Below are positions 38,513 through 46,959 of a DNA stretch of 64,000 bases, piece after piece (position 1 is the first letter of the stretch; the number at the start of each line of letters is the position of its first letter). Made by a program: the position numbers and the translations under genes. The notes below the pieces were generated by a model. It had not been told where the DNA came from. It saw only the letters and a list, made by a program, of their open reading frames with translations, and did not search any database. This DNA comes from Maricaulaceae bacterium EIL42A08 (lineage in GTDB: Bacteria > Pseudomonadota > Alphaproteobacteria > Caulobacterales > Maricaulaceae). The DNA lies in NCBI GenBank assembly GCA_024178355.1, contig JAMZNZ010000001.1, forward strand, positions 1 through 64,000, given 5' to 3'.

Positions 38513-38642
38513 ACCGCCCAAAGTTCGCATGGTGCCATGGACGACGCTGTGCATCCTCTTGGGCGCGCTCTTCCTGTTCCTGCTGGCGCACGTCTTCACA
38601 CTGTTCGGGTTTGAAACCGGCCAGATGTTCAATCGCTTTTAG
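38427..38642 (+). CDS. Small membrane protein (71 residues)
   Basis: Two predicted transmembrane helices, TLTVTLILMAITAGLFALC and WTTLCILLGALFLFLLAHVF, joined by a polar loop (RSNLPTEPPKVRM). The ATG lies inside the end of the glycosyltransferase gene in a different frame (86-base overlap), so the start is supported by the helix pattern rather than by spacing. It may be an accessory subunit of the glycosyltransferase. The 3' end meets the VTT-type gene tail to tail. Confidence 0.7.
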   Translation: MTLTVTLILMAITAGLFALCAWRSNLPTEPPKVRMVPWTTLCILLGALFLFLLAHVFTLFGFETGQMFNRF

Positions 38643-39289
38643 GCAGCCGCCGGAATTCGGAAAATCTGGAAGAGCGTCCAGGCAAACAGGCCCGTGAACG
38701 CCAGCACCAGCCCCAGACTGCCCCACAGACGCAACCGCTTTGGCAAGCGCCGCCAAGTTTCAATGATGGCCGGTCCGAAGAAGAAGACCAGCAGCCCCAT
38801 CGCCAGATAGCGCACCGAGCGCCCCGCCAGCGCGGCAACCAGGAAGATTGCCGGATTCATCTGCACAATCCCGGCCGCGAAGGATGCGACCTGCACCGGC
38901 GTCGGGGCCAGCATGGCCAGCGCCACCGCCCAGCCGCCGATGGAGTCGATACGGCCCTGTGAAGCATCAAGCGCAGCCGACATGGCCGGTCTGGCGGCAA
39001 TAAAGCCTTCCAGCATGCCAAACGCAGCCCGCCCCGCCGCATAGCAGATCAGGCACCCCACAACGCTGCCCAGTGTTACGACCAGCGTGACCACAAGCGT
39101 CTGTGTCCGCCCGCGCAGCATGTAGGCCAGCATCGGAAACTCGATCGGCCAGGGCAGGATGGAGGATTCCAGGATCGACCCGAAATATAGCGCTGGCAGC
39201 GCCATTTTTCCCCGCAAAAGCAGCCGGGCCCGTGCTTTCAGGCGTAGCCCGGAGTGGCGATTGGCGGCTTTAGACACAGGTCGGTCCAT
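38639..39289 (-). CDS. VTT-domain (DedA/YqaA-like) membrane protein
   Basis: A 216-residue integral membrane protein with about five hydrophobic segments. The VTT-type pattern is visible: a re-entrant start FGSILESSILPWPIEFPMLAY, a Gly-rich helix VVTLGSVVGCLICYAAGRAA, then APTPVQVASFAAGIVQMNP and AALAGRSVRYLAMGLLVFF. The family includes lipid scramblase or flippase-like proteins such as DedA and TMEM41. The substrate is unknown. I chose the ATG at 39289 over a longer unconserved extension to 39394. It overlaps the previous small gene's stop by four bases, tail to tail. Confidence 0.82.
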   Translation of the reverse strand: MDRPVSKAANRHSGLRLKARARLLLRGKMALPALYFGSILESSILPWPIEFPMLAYMLRGRTQTLVVTLVVTLGSVVGCLICYAAGRAAFGMLEGFIAARPAMSAALDASQGRIDSIGGWAVALAMLAPTPVQVASFAAGIVQMNPAIFLVAALAGRSVRYLAMGLLVFFFGPAIIETWRRLPKRLRLWGSLGLVLAFTGLFAWTLFQIFRIPAAA

Positions 39290-39312
39290 GCGATTTCGTG
39301 GTCCTTGAGTGA

Positions 39313-41766
<2,454 letters not shown>

Positions 41767-41790
41767 TCGACGCGTTCAGCCCATCAATGC

Positions 41791-41826
41791 AGCGGCGCTC
41801 TGGCAACGGAGCGCCGCTGTTTTTTT
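41791..41826 (+). terminator. Rho-independent terminator of katG
   Basis: AGCGGCGCTC (41791-41800) pairs with GAGCGCCGCT (41809-41818) around an eight-base loop, followed by seven T residues. It is 25 bases past the katG stop and separates katG from the next operon. Confidence 0.92.
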
Positions 41827-41997
41827 GGCTAACATCAAACTAACCAATCGATAGAATTTGTCGCAGGCTTCGCATAAAAGTTGCGCTCCTGCCCGACCCT
41901 GCCTAGGCTTTCACTTCAGCGTTTCATCAAGTCGCCAATTCAATCATCTTTGCGACCGAGTGAACCCTTAAGACATTGACCAGGGACAGGATTTTAT

Positions 41998-42690
41998 ATG
42001 TCGAACATTGCGGGTAAGGCGTATGCGATGAATGTCGTTACGCCAAGCAACCGGAAGATCAGCTGGATCAACCGGACCATATTCATGTTTTTCCGCTGTC
42101 TACCCACTGCCCTCCAGGGCCTGCTGGGGTTGCAGCTGATCCACTTTGCACGCTGGGTCTTTATCAAGCCGGACCAATGGCCAGACCTGGGTCAGGGCAA
42201 ACAGACGGTCCAGAATGACTATGTGCTGTTCTGCTCCAACTTTAACGGCACCTGGGACCAGTATATCGACGCCTTCTCCGATGGCATTCCGCTGGGACTG
42301 GACCTGTTCTGGTATTCCTCGATCAAATACCCTCGGTCGATCCCGATCACACCCTTTAAAAACTACATTACTTTCAATCAGATAAATACTGATTACTACT
42401 AAAACGCTACCCCGGGTTCGGCCCAGCGCGACATCAAGACCAGCCTGTCCATCTACAACGAGGTGGAGAAGCTGACCGAGCTGCACCGGACCGCAACCCC
42501 CGATGAGTTTGCAGCCGCCTACGCCAAGGTCGCCAGCCTGATCCAGAACGGTTTGGGCGATCCCGGCTTTGGTCCTGTGGCAAGCCTTGATACCGAGCGG
42601 GCCCAGGTCAATCGCTACGCCTATGCCGAGCATAATCATGGCCAAGCTCCCTCACCTGCTGCTGACGCCGCTACACCGAAGGGGGCCTGA
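41998..42690 (+). pseudogene. Unrecognised gene of the peroxidase/P450 operon, with in-frame TAA
   Basis: One frame runs from the ATG at 41998 (AGGA nine bases upstream) to TGA at 42690, broken only by TAA at 42400-42402 after codon 134. Before the stop the protein has a hydrophobic segment (LQGLLGLQLIHFARWVFI) and a polar domain (DYVLFCSNFNGTWDQYIDAF). After it the frame continues NATPGSAQRDIKTS and VEKLTELHRTATPDEF with the same GC-rich codon style. The stop is preceded by TAC-TAC, so a Tyr codon changed to TAA is the simplest reading (DYY-stop-NAT). The family is not recognised. Either this is a pseudogene, a sequence error, or a stop that is read through. A truncated protein from 41998 to 42402 could also be made. 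The next gene starts three bases downstream. Confidence 0.65.
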
Positions 42691-42693
42691 ACC

Positions 42694-43758
42694 ATGCCGG
42701 ATTTTGATAACGGACATATCTTCCTGACCACGCTGGCTCCAATCAAGCCGGGCGCACCAGCCGATGACCCCCAGGTTTCCCATGGCCAGCGGATCCGCAC
42801 GGGCCTGTCCCTGATGCCGGTTGCGCGCCAGTCACCGGCCACCGCGAACGCGCGCGAGATCAGTCCCTTTGCCCGCAACACGCGCAACCATCTGGCGCGC
42901 ATGTTTGTGCTCAACGACACGGTCTATAACGGCCGCAACACGATGAACCCGATCGCCGCCATCGTGCGCAGCATCCCGATCATTCGAAACTTCTTTGGCG
43001 GCGGCGTTCCGGCCAATGTTTTAAAGCCGCAGAAGATGGACCATCTGAACGCGTCCTATCTGGTGTTCTGCGCTGATATCGACGCGATCACGGACGATGG
43101 CGATCCGCTTCCGGCCAACCTGAACGCGGCCCAGCAACGTGATGTGCGCCATTCCTATGCCCGCAAGCTGTGGGAGACGATGAGCGAGGAGCTGATCGCG
43201 CTCTACTCCAATTGCTACGGGTTTGAAGGCGTTGATTCAGCAGACAAGTTTGCCGCCTATCTGGACCGCTGCCACGTGGAAACGACCATGCCGTTCCACG
43301 ATTACTAGTTCCAGACGCCCGCCTTTAATAACTCCAAGCTGATGATCGGGCTTGGGGCCGTCACCGCCCTGAGCTTCGTCGCGGCGATTGCAGGCTTCGC
43401 GCTCCACATCTTTGGCTTGGCGCAAATTCCCTTCACCAGCTGGCCCACCAATCTGTTCTGGCCTTGCGCGACCATGCTTGGTCTTGTGCTGGGTTTCATC
43501 ACTGTCAAATTCATCAACTCACGCGGCCAGAAACCCTTCCCGCTGGGCAAGTATGATGACCTGCCGTCGGTGCTCAAGGCGATCTACATCCAGCAGAAGA
43601 TGGCCGATTTCTACATCGACAATCAGGGTGCTGATCCAGACGCGCTGCATGCTGCCTTCGGCAAATTCATCACCGAGCACGACCCGCAGAACACCCATTC
43701 GAAAACGCAGAAGCCGGGCGTCATTTCCTCGGCCGATCCGCAAAACGTAACTTCTTGA
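42694..43758 (+). pseudogene. Second unrecognised operon gene, with in-frame TAG before membrane domain
   Basis: A frame from the ATG at 42694 to TGA at 43758 (354 codons) is interrupted once, by TAG at 43306-43308. The part before it is a soluble domain (204 residues: HLNASYLVFCADIDAITDDG, RHSYARKLWETMSEELIALY, CHVETTMPFHDY). The part after, starting FQTPAFNNSKLMIGLG, contains two membrane helices (GAVTALSFVAAIAGFALHIF and FWPCATMLGLVLGFITV) and ends in a polar tail. Codon use stays the same across the stop. The YLVFCADID region resembles YVLFCSNFN in the preceding gene, so they may be distant relatives. The function is unknown. If the stop is sometimes read through, a membrane-anchored form would be made. 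It lies 17 bases upstream of the DyP gene. Confidence 0.65.
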
Positions 43759-43775
43759 AGAGTTGAGCCAAATCC

Positions 43776-45482
43776 ATGACACGTGAGCTGAATCTCAACG
43801 ATATTCAGGGTAATATCACCCGCGCCTATGGCCGCTATTCCTTCCCGTTTGCGCGCTATTATTTCTTCCACTTCCCTGACGCGGCCTGCGGTCGCAAATT
43901 CATCGACAAGGTGTGTGAAAAGATCACCACTGCAGCGCGCTGGCCGACCATGCAGGACAAGCCAGACTGCACCACCAATTGCGCTTTCACCTTCCCCGGT
44001 CTGCTGGCGCTGCAGCTATCGATCCGGGCGCTCAAGGAGATGCCGTTCGAGTTTATCGAGGGCATGAAGGCGCGCGCCTTCATTCTGGGCGATCGCGACC
44101 AGACCCAGACCGAAGCCGAGGCCTTCAAGGCCAACTGGAACGACCACTGGGACCCGATCTGGAAGCATAATCGCGAGTTTGGTTCCGATGGCTCCAACGA
44201 CGTACACATGCTGGTTACGCTCAACGCCCAGATCAAACCGGGCACCACCGACCAGCCGCACCCGGCGCTGGAAGAGCGCGCCGACTGGCTCATCAAACAG
44301 GCCGAAGCCTGCGGAGTGCGCGTCATGAATGGCGTGGGTCCCGACGGCAAAGGCACCTACCAGTCCGCCTCGGCCGTGTTTGACAAGATTGGTGAGGCTG
44401 TTCTGCCCACCGCCAAGGAGCATTTCGGCTTTACCGATGGCATCGGCGATCCCGTGTTTGAGGGCCAGTTTGAGCCTGAAGACGAAGCCAGGAATGTCAT
44501 CGGCCGCGGCAAGCTGATGGGCAACGGCTGGGAACCGCTGGCCACCGGCGAATTCCTGCTGGGCCATCCCGACGAAAGCCAGGAATTGCCCCCAGCGGCC
44601 AAGCCACCCGAATTCATGCACAATTCCAGCTTCTTCGCGTTTCGAAAGCTGCATGAGAATGTCGCCAGCTTTGATGAGGTCGTCGACACCGAGGCTGAAA
44701 AATTCGCCAAGGTCATGAATGTCAACATCGAAGAGGCGCGCGAAACCATCCGGGCCAAGATGTGCGGGCGCTGGTCAGACGGCGTGCCGCTGATGAAATA
44801 CCCGACCTATGACGAGTGGCAGGCGTTTCGCAAAGCCAGCGGCTTTATCCCGGACATCCAGCCGGATGATACGCCGGAAGAAAAGCAGAAGAAGGCGCTG
44901 GATGCCTATGGCAGGCACATCGCCTATATTCGCTCGCCAGAGGCACGGGACTTCAGATATGCCGATGACATGCAGGGCTATAAATGCCCGCTCGGCTCGC
45001 ATATGCGCCGGGTCAACACGCGCGATTATCTTGATCCGCTGAACAATGTCGGAACCGACCCCAAGACCGGCAAGCCAGCAGAAAACCCCAACGCCACCAG
45101 CGCACTGAACAAGCGTCGTCGCATCCTTCGCCGGGGCCTGCCTTATGGTCCGTCCAATCTGGAGCACAAGGACGACGACACTGAACAGGGCGTCATCATG
45201 ATGATCATGGGCGCAAACCTGTTTCGTCAGTTCGAGTTCGTGCAGCAGCAGTGGATTCAGTACGGCCTCGATTTTCACCAGGGCAACAACACCTGCCCGA
45301 TGCTGGGCGATCACAGCCACCACAAACGGCACACGATTGAGTCCGACCCGGCGTCGGGCAAACCGCCCTACGTGATGAGCACGCTGAAAACCTTCGTGGA
45401 ATGTCGCGGTGGCGACTATTTCTTCGCGCCCTCAATGACGGGCCTTCGCATGCTCGCCATGGGCACGATCGACCCGACCTAA
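43776..45482 (+). CDS. DyP-type haem peroxidase
   Basis: A 568-residue dye-decolourising peroxidase of the long type. The signature GXXDG is FGFTDGIGDP, with the catalytic D221. The proximal haem ligand is H409 in CPLGSHMRRVNTRD, and the distal Arg is likely R453 (ILRRGLPYGPS). MHNSSFFAFRKLHENV is also typical. No Tat or Sec signal is seen, so it probably acts in the cytoplasm or is carried by a partner. DyP enzymes oxidise many aromatic or large substrates with hydrogen peroxide. It sits in an operon between two unrecognised genes and a P450, with an 18-base gap to the latter. Confidence 0.92.
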   Translation: MTRELNLNDIQGNITRAYGRYSFPFARYYFFHFPDAACGRKFIDKVCEKITTAARWPTMQDKPDCTTNCAFTFPGLLALQLSIRALKEMPFEFIEGMKARAFILGDRDQTQTEAEAFKANWNDHWDPIWKHNREFGSDGSNDVHMLVTLNAQIKPGTTDQPHPALEERADWLIKQAEACGVRVMNGVGPDGKGTYQSASAVFDKIGEAVLPTAKEHFGFTDGIGDPVFEGQFEPEDEARNVIGRGKLMGNGWEPLATGEFLLGHPDESQELPPAAKPPEFMHNSSFFAFRKLHENVASFDEVVDTEAEKFAKVMNVNIEEARETIRAKMCGRWSDGVPLMKYPTYDEWQAFRKASGFIPDIQPDDTPEEKQKKALDAYGRHIAYIRSPEARDFRYADDMQGYKCPLGSHMRRVNTRDYLDPLNNVGTDPKTGKPAENPNATSALNKRRRILRRGLPYGPSNLEHKDDDTEQGVIMMIMGANLFRQFEFVQQQWIQYGLDFHQGNNTCPMLGDHSHHKRHTIESDPASGKPPYVMSTLKTFVECRGGDYFFAPSMTGLRMLAMGTIDPT

Positions 45483-45500
45483 CGCCAGAGGCGCACAAAT

Positions 45501-46844
45501 ATGTTTACGAAAATTGCCAATATTTTCATCTCGCTCTTCACCCTTTTGAGGGTCATCGTGGCGGGACTGGTTTCGCTGCTTTACCTGATTGTGATGGGCG
45601 CTGTGTCGCTGGTCTCCGGCGGGATCGGGCCGTTTCTGCTCAAACCTGCGACCCAGCAGAAAGTCTTTAATGTGTTGCGCGCCTTCTGGCCGAACATCGC
45701 GTTGAACACCGTGATCATCAAGTCCTACGAAAACACCGGCACGGTGATCGTCACCCGGCGCGAGGACGTGCTGGACGTGCTCAGCCGCGATGCGGACTTT
45801 GAGGTCGTCTACGGCAGCCGCATGAAGAAGCTGACCAATGGCGACAACTTCTTCCTGGGCATGCAGCCAGGCTGGGACTATCAGCGCGATGTGTCGGCCA
45901 TGCGCCTGGCAGCGCGGATTGATGATGTGCCCAACATCATCCTGCCCAACGCCCAGACGCGATCTGCGGAGATCGTTGAATCGGCTGGCGGCAAGATCGA
46001 CATGGTCCAGGACCTGACCCTGCTGGTCCCGTGGGAGATGACCTCCACCTATTTCGGGGCCGGCGGCGAGCGCGACGCCATGGCGGAGTGGACGACCAAT
46101 CTGTTCTGGTATCTGTTTGCCGACCTGGGCGCGGATGAGCAGCTGGATGATATCGCGATGAGCGATGCCGCCGCCCTGCGCAGCTATCTTGATGACCATA
46201 TCGCCGCGCGCAAAGCCAAGCCGACCAAGGACGACGATGTTCTCAACCGCTGTCTCGCCCTTCAGAAGGCAGACACCCCCGGCATGAGCGATCTGGGCAT
46301 CCGCAACAACCTGCTAGGCCTTCTTATCGGGGCTATTCCGACCATTTCAAAGGCCAGCTGCTTTGCCATCGATGAATTGCTGAACCGCCCTGAACAGCTC
46401 GCCGGAGCCCAGGCCGCGGCGCGCGATGGCAATGACGCGCTGATGGCTAATTACGTATGGGAAGCGCTTCGCTTTAACCCGTTCAGCCCGCTGCTCTATC
46501 GCCGCGCGACGCGCGACGCGACCATTGCGCCATCAACCCTGCGCCGGGTCCGGGTCAAAAAAGGCCAGATGGTGTTCGCAACCACCGCTGCAGCCTGTTT
46601 TGACCCCTACGACCTGGCATCGCCTGGAGCGTTCAAAACCGACCGCCCCTGGGAAACCTATATTCCCTGGGGGTATGGCATGCACAAATGCTTTGGCAGC
46701 GCCATCAACAAGGCTGTCATCCCGGCCATATTGAAGCCCGTGCTGATGCAGAAGAATTTGCGCCGCGCACCAGGTGAGGCCGGCCAGATCAATAACGGCA
46801 CGTCCGCCTTCCCCCAGCATTTCCATCTGGAGTGGGATAGGTAA
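45501..46844 (+). CDS. Membrane-anchored cytochrome P450 with atypical I-helix
   Basis: A 447-residue P450-like protein. The N-terminus has a long hydrophobic anchor (about 8-45). The haem-binding loop is WGYGMHKCFGSAINKA with Cys397, and the K-helix ExxR is E321-R324 (WEALRFNPFSP). The I-helix, normally A/G-G-x-D/E-T, reads GAIPT at 277-281: proline replaces the acidic residue, and no ferredoxin or reductase gene is nearby. Such a site suits peroxide- or hydroperoxide-driven chemistry rather than oxygen activation. Together with the upstream DyP peroxidase a peroxide-based two-step conversion is plausible, but the substrate is not known. Confidence 0.9.
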   Translation: MFTKIANIFISLFTLLRVIVAGLVSLLYLIVMGAVSLVSGGIGPFLLKPATQQKVFNVLRAFWPNIALNTVIIKSYENTGTVIVTRREDVLDVLSRDADFEVVYGSRMKKLTNGDNFFLGMQPGWDYQRDVSAMRLAARIDDVPNIILPNAQTRSAEIVESAGGKIDMVQDLTLLVPWEMTSTYFGAGGERDAMAEWTTNLFWYLFADLGADEQLDDIAMSDAAALRSYLDDHIAARKAKPTKDDDVLNRCLALQKADTPGMSDLGIRNNLLGLLIGAIPTISKASCFAIDELLNRPEQLAGAQAAARDGNDALMANYVWEALRFNPFSPLLYRRATRDATIAPSTLRRVRVKKGQMVFATTAAACFDPYDLASPGAFKTDRPWETYIPWGYGMHKCFGSAINKAVIPAILKPVLMQKNLRRAPGEAGQINNGTSAFPQHFHLEWDR

Positions 46845-46885
46845 GCGGAAGGCTGTTGAGCCCTGAATTAAATTTGCGAAGGAGT

Positions 46886-46959
46886 TGGAGCGGGTAGCGA
46901 GAATCGAACTCGCACGTTCAGCTTGGGAAGCTGACAGGCTACCATTACATCATACCCGC
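46886..46959 (-). tRNA. tRNA-Gly (anticodon CCC)
   Basis: On the minus strand the 7-base acceptor GCGGGTA (46953-46959) pairs with TACCCGC (46890-46896), with discriminator T and encoded CCA (46886-46888). The anticodon stem TCAGC/GCTGA encloses loop TTCCCAA, giving anticodon CCC, which reads GGG. The T loop GTTCGATTC is standard. It lies between the P450 gene and the TPR gene and could serve as an integration landmark. Confidence 0.95.

Follow-up and report, generated by a model that had tools for sequence, protein, structure and literature searches.

The DNA analysed here, referred to as the window, is the 64,000-nt stretch that opens contig C3 in the genome of Maricaulaceae bacterium EIL42A08 (2.99 Mb, 6 contigs). 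The coding sequences examined (41998–46844) belong to a four-gene operon in which two genes of unnamed families, called gene 1 and gene 2, are followed by a DyP-type peroxidase gene (DyP) and a cytochrome P450 gene (P450). Gene 1 and gene 2 are each interrupted by one in-frame stop codon, TAA in the former and TAG in the latter (Table 1). Frames and stops alike lie exactly where the original prediction, made from the window sequence, had placed them, and both frames go on past the interruption to a normal TGA. DyP and P450, described there as intact, do have open frames.

Table 1. Features of the interrupted operon and of its downstream border (window coordinates)
Feature	Coordinates	Strand	Details
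Gene 1, small protein of unnamed family, interrupted frame	41998..42690	+	ATG 41998; 134 codons, TAA, 95 codons, TGA 42688–42690; 230-codon frame
In-frame TAA, gene 1 codon 135	42400..42402	+	homologues Tyr: TAC 73 rows, TAT 10 rows
Gene 2, unnamed protein, interrupted frame	42694..43758	+	ATG 42694; 204 codons, TAG, 149 codons, TGA 43756–43758; 354-codon frame
In-frame TAG, gene 2 codon 205	43306..43308	+	homologues mostly Tyr or Trp
Divergent DyP-type peroxidase, frame open	43776..45482	+	PF21105 DyP_N, 23.3 bits
Cytochrome P450, frame open	45501..46844	+	PF00067, 3.6e-14
tRNA-Gly (CCC), just past operon end	46886..46959	-	counterpart in 11/14 other same-genus genomes

The residues standing at the two stop sites were read from homologous loci. 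A profile of four gene 1 proteins was run against the species genome collection and the best 80 of 270 relatives were retained. Together with the loci of G166, G361 and Granulicella they make 83 rows and 82 distinct loci, L047 and L096 being apparently the same record and counted once; weaker hits (L006–L012) and the matches of a plasmid search (H2–H9) were left out of the scoring. At the gene 1 site, Tyr is found in all 83 rows. The gene 2 site is covered by 80 rows, since L048, L121 and L157 do not align; these carry Tyr (41), Trp (37), Cys (1) or Phe (1), the Phe row (L132) being poorly aligned there. No row has a stop codon at either site (83 rows for gene 1, 80 for gene 2). Codons for Tyr and Trp are a single substitution away from the TAA and TAG stops seen here.

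These data fit what the original prediction had given as a simple alternative, namely nonsense mutation of Tyr to TAA in gene 1 and of Tyr or Trp to TAG in gene 2: Tyr stands in every row at the first site, Tyr or Trp accounts for 78 of the 80 rows at the second, and no row carries a stop. Homologues ending naturally at these positions had been named as the case that would speak against interrupted genes; related sequence instead continues in the homologues. In G166, gene 1, gene 2, DyP and P450 are found uninterrupted and in the same order. Internal stops that seemed to be shared by G166 (a TAG) and G361 (a TAA) were discarded as the proteins' own terminators (codons 213 and 224, counted from 0).

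Coding character was claimed to persist beyond both stops, and it does. The G+C content of third codon positions (GC3) is 0.716 both upstream and downstream of the TAA in gene 1, is 0.760 upstream and 0.752 downstream of the TAG in gene 2, and homologues align across both sites. Conservation before and after the sites was assessed with 79 homologues for gene 1 and 75 for gene 2, leaving out L013, L048, the duplicate L096 and those whose frame is not full-length (L099 in gene 1; L099, L121, L142, L151 and L157 in gene 2). Where conservation reaches 90% or more, the window deviates in gene 1 at 3 of 74 columns before the stop and 0 of 20 after it; the corresponding figures for gene 2 are 0 of 36 and 2 of 19. 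Mean deviations of the other homologues, before and after the site, are 1.1 and 0.6 for gene 1 and 1.2 and 0.7 for gene 2. Since departures at conserved columns after the stops are so few, the stops look recent, too young for decay to be visible downstream. The difference in pairwise identity (after minus before the site) in gene 1 is −0.282 for pairs involving the window and −0.268 for other pairs (standard deviation 0.066), which is no real difference; in gene 2 the drop is slightly larger for window pairs (−0.167, compared to −0.107 for other pairs, standard deviation 0.049). With the threshold raised to 95%, the window deviates at 2 of 85 columns in gene 1 (the stop site being read as Tyr), 0 of 40 in gene 2, 1 of 117 in DyP and 2 of 91 in P450.

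Neither of the two proteins could be attached to a known family. For gene 1, Pfam gives nothing at E up to 1 and NCBIfam a single insignificant match (E 0.19), and a profile search of Protein Data Bank (PDB) sequences found nothing at E up to 10; its structure model is poor (mean predicted local distance difference test score, pLDDT, 55.7) and was not used. For gene 2, Pfam again gives nothing at E up to 1 and NCBIfam a single insignificant match (E 0.037); a Pfam scan of 39 gene 2 proteins returned weak scattered matches only, the best at E 0.0052. The gene 2 model (mean pLDDT 83.7), which has no structural match among PDB chains at E 0.001 or better, consists of an N-terminal alpha/beta domain (elements 8–193) and, past the stop, a two-helix hairpin (H214–239 and H252–278) followed by two C-terminal helices. 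Two membrane helices had been proposed for the part of gene 2 after the stop: the model does predict two long hydrophobic helices there, and their putative membrane nature is deduced from hydrophobicity. A nine-sequence alignment hinted that gene 1 and gene 2 might be paralogues, an idea that was dropped after profile comparison (probability 1.2%), so that we do not claim that both stops occupy one structural position.

A search of 60 relatives, including 14 from the same genus, returned nothing at E 0.001 for either the gene 1 or the gene 2 protein. This restricted distribution indicates that the operon is probably an accessory block that was acquired, and suggests that it is dispensable.

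Taking these results together, two recent, lineage-specific nonsense substitutions in a dispensable, apparently imported operon are the simplest explanation of the locus and, in our judgement, quite probably the right one. Gene 1 and gene 2 would each have taken one nonsense substitution at an aromatic codon, Tyr in gene 1 and Tyr or Trp in gene 2. The main products would then be fragments of 134 and 204 residues, the first without the invariant Tyr and the 95 residues that follow, the second without its helical hairpin and C-terminal helices, and both proteins would be lost or strongly reduced. DyP and P450 should remain translatable from their own starts, perhaps at a lower level because 285 and 447 bases between the premature and the natural stops would be left untranslated. 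In several respects the two genes resemble young pseudogenes, i.e. bacterial genes hit by nonsense mutations: each carries a single stop, reached in one step, at a codon that is sense in all homologues examined, the remaining frame is intact, and the operon is accessory and lineage-restricted. They are unlike them in that two adjacent genes were hit once each whereas the two downstream genes are intact, and in that missense changes at strongly conserved columns are fewer than neutral decay predicts. Provided that the stops are real, the locus shows one lineage in which two of the four components of an apparently imported redox operon are being lost.

Several observations weigh against this explanation. 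Neutral drift predicts about 5.3 missense changes per nonsense change at columns conserved at 95% or more, whereas the window has two in total, both of them preceding the gene 1 stop. Under a simple neutral model, so few changes beside two nonsense substitutions have P ~0.03, a value obtained post hoc from one genome and at the single threshold of 95% (at 90% the window deviates at 5 of 149 columns). The low missense count leaves room for selected loss of the two proteins, for errors at these particular bases or for leaky expression. In addition, the stops lie in adjacent genes and both come after an Asp-Tyr motif; of all the single-step routes to a stop, a given Tyr codon represents 2 of 82 in gene 2 and 2 of 75 in gene 1, a calculation that was also made post hoc.

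A sequencing or assembly error, with miscalled bases at one or both stops and intact genes in the living organism, is unlikely. Both changes are single-base, the two genes are otherwise unbroken and conserved sequence extends past the stops, all of which an error would also give. The assembly figures, on the other hand, are good (6 contigs, completeness 99.99, contamination 0.06), and an error rate producing two stops in 1.75 kb should also bring many amino-acid changes, whereas the columns conserved at 95% show few. The genome at large was examined by comparing a 464 kb sample of it with 400 kb of the relative G011 (90 aligned regions, 28,703 codons), using the best hit per region after a first listing had given many antisense-looking stops. 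Six stops in four regions were flagged, none of them a clear broken gene as judged by eye; they are located near an alignment end or in weak, perhaps antisense, frames. In the same 464 kb, TACTAC is not depleted (33 occurrences, compared to 12 for TACTAA, 13 for TACTAG and 18 for TACTAT) and GATTACTA, a string common to both genes, occurs four times on both strands; these counts gave no sign of a systematic miscall. A coding-potential scan of the sample found 33 same-frame pairs, two of which correspond to the present stops, some of the other 31 resembling antisense frames or ordinary adjacent genes. Nothing points to a local double error, though one is possible.

We think it improbable that the stops were selected, the strain gaining by switching off, or leakily throttling, both small proteins but retaining the peroxidase and the P450. 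Such a selected loss would be expected to leave too many nonsense changes relative to missense ones at strongly conserved columns, as in the neutral-model comparison above.

The original prediction had rather drawn attention to the context of the stops, noting that both follow GATTAC and share eight bases, and had considered occasional readthrough, which in gene 2 would give soluble and membrane-anchored forms. The shared string GATTACTA is real. It is not in register with the stops: the contexts are GAT-TAC-TAC-TAA in gene 1 and GAT-TAC-TAG in gene 2, so that an extra TAC precedes the gene 1 stop and the string is shifted by one codon from one gene to the other. Only the TAC directly before each stop is common in register. 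Moreover, homologues L078, L108 and L122 carry GATTACTAC followed by a sense Tyr codon, which argues that the context is a conserved protein motif and not a recoding signal. With an off-register protein motif as context and neither stop kept by any homologue examined, a shared stop context with regulated readthrough is not supported. On the sequences compared, programmed readthrough is without its defining evidence, a stop common to relatives. The case for recoding at this locus does not stand, itself a useful outcome.

Another possibility is leaky expression, in which a minor share of ribosomes would pass through genuine stops and give low levels of the full-length proteins; we consider it quite improbable. 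It would account for the codon use and conserved residues that persist past both stops, and for changes at strongly conserved columns being fewer than neutral loss predicts. Merely recent stops predict the same pattern, however, and the two codons are different (TAA and TAG), neither occurring in any homologue examined. The loci of 39 tRNA hits contain no CUA or UUA suppressor anticodon able to read these stops, but this set is incomplete (tRNA-Ile(GAU) and tRNA-Ala(UGC) are missing); the taa and tag anticodons among these hits belong to tRNA-Leu and read leucine codons. Belinky et al. (2021, PMC7918605) report that in-frame stops under purifying selection are widespread in bacterial genes, and argue that most of them are short-lived. 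As in that study, the present stops interrupt genes that are conserved in other respects and keep their coding character downstream; in contrast, its large-scale argument rests on sharing across species, and here no other examined genome shares either stop.

It is very improbable that the truncated proteins work in their shortened form, gene 2 especially as a soluble protein without the helical hairpin: although the gene 2 stop site (codon 205) is predicted to fall in a low-confidence stretch (199–205) between the alpha/beta domain and the hairpin, and G361 and Granulicella have short relatives of gene 2 in which the hairpin region is absent, these relatives keep related sequence past the site, so they are not cut there, and the gene 1 stop removes the Tyr that is invariant in 83 rows.

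Internal stops in the other copies were counted over 80 loci (79 of the 80 kept, L047 standing for L096), considering stops within the first 90% of the query. They occur in 1 of 80 gene 1 matches, 2 of 79 gene 2 matches and 1 of 76 DyP matches; none was found in the 52 P450 matches, one of which has a frameshift-like break. Three of the four internal stops, plus the frameshift, come from L099 alone, and the other, in gene 2, from L151, both loci being from metagenome-assembled genomes. Broken copies may therefore exist in 2 of the 80 loci, which speaks for the nonsense explanation, though both are possibly assembly faults. In L099, gene 1, gene 2 and DyP have one stop each and P450 has the frameshift, and downstream sequence is still well conserved.

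In the window, a block made of katG and the operon sits between a glycosyltransferase gene and tRNA-Gly(CCC). Seven loci of relatives around tRNA-Gly were compared with the window proteins, and the operon genes are unmatched in all seven. In one of them (L181, from G013), the glycosyltransferase is at most about 0.6 kb from tRNA-Gly, with no space for katG and the operon; in the remaining loci, different neighbours were matched. From the arrangement of this region (38600–46900), katG and the operon look inserted between the glycosyltransferase and the tRNA gene. Among the tRNA-Gly(CCC) matches in same-genus genomes, ten are at 94% identity or more, and the copy of G007 is at 73% only.

The wider value of the locus is the operon itself, which associates two unnamed families without significant Pfam match with a divergent DyP and often a P450. 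The combination of gene 1, gene 2 and a divergent DyP, often with P450, is found in many Proteobacteria and on one Granulicella plasmid, with 270 gene 1 relatives in the species genome collection. Within the stretches covered for the 80 loci, a DyP match was found in 76 and a P450 match in 52. The window DyP-type peroxidase scores below the curated PF21105 cut-off (23.3 compared to 27.5 bits) and is thus a divergent member. A literature search for a DyP-P450 operon returned nothing related, judging by title. Weakly similar proteins are encoded two genes upstream of a P450 in Skermanella (L016, 6885–11130), and in Acinetobacter (L015, 2831–6437) beside genes for a DyP peroxidase and a member of the catalase family.
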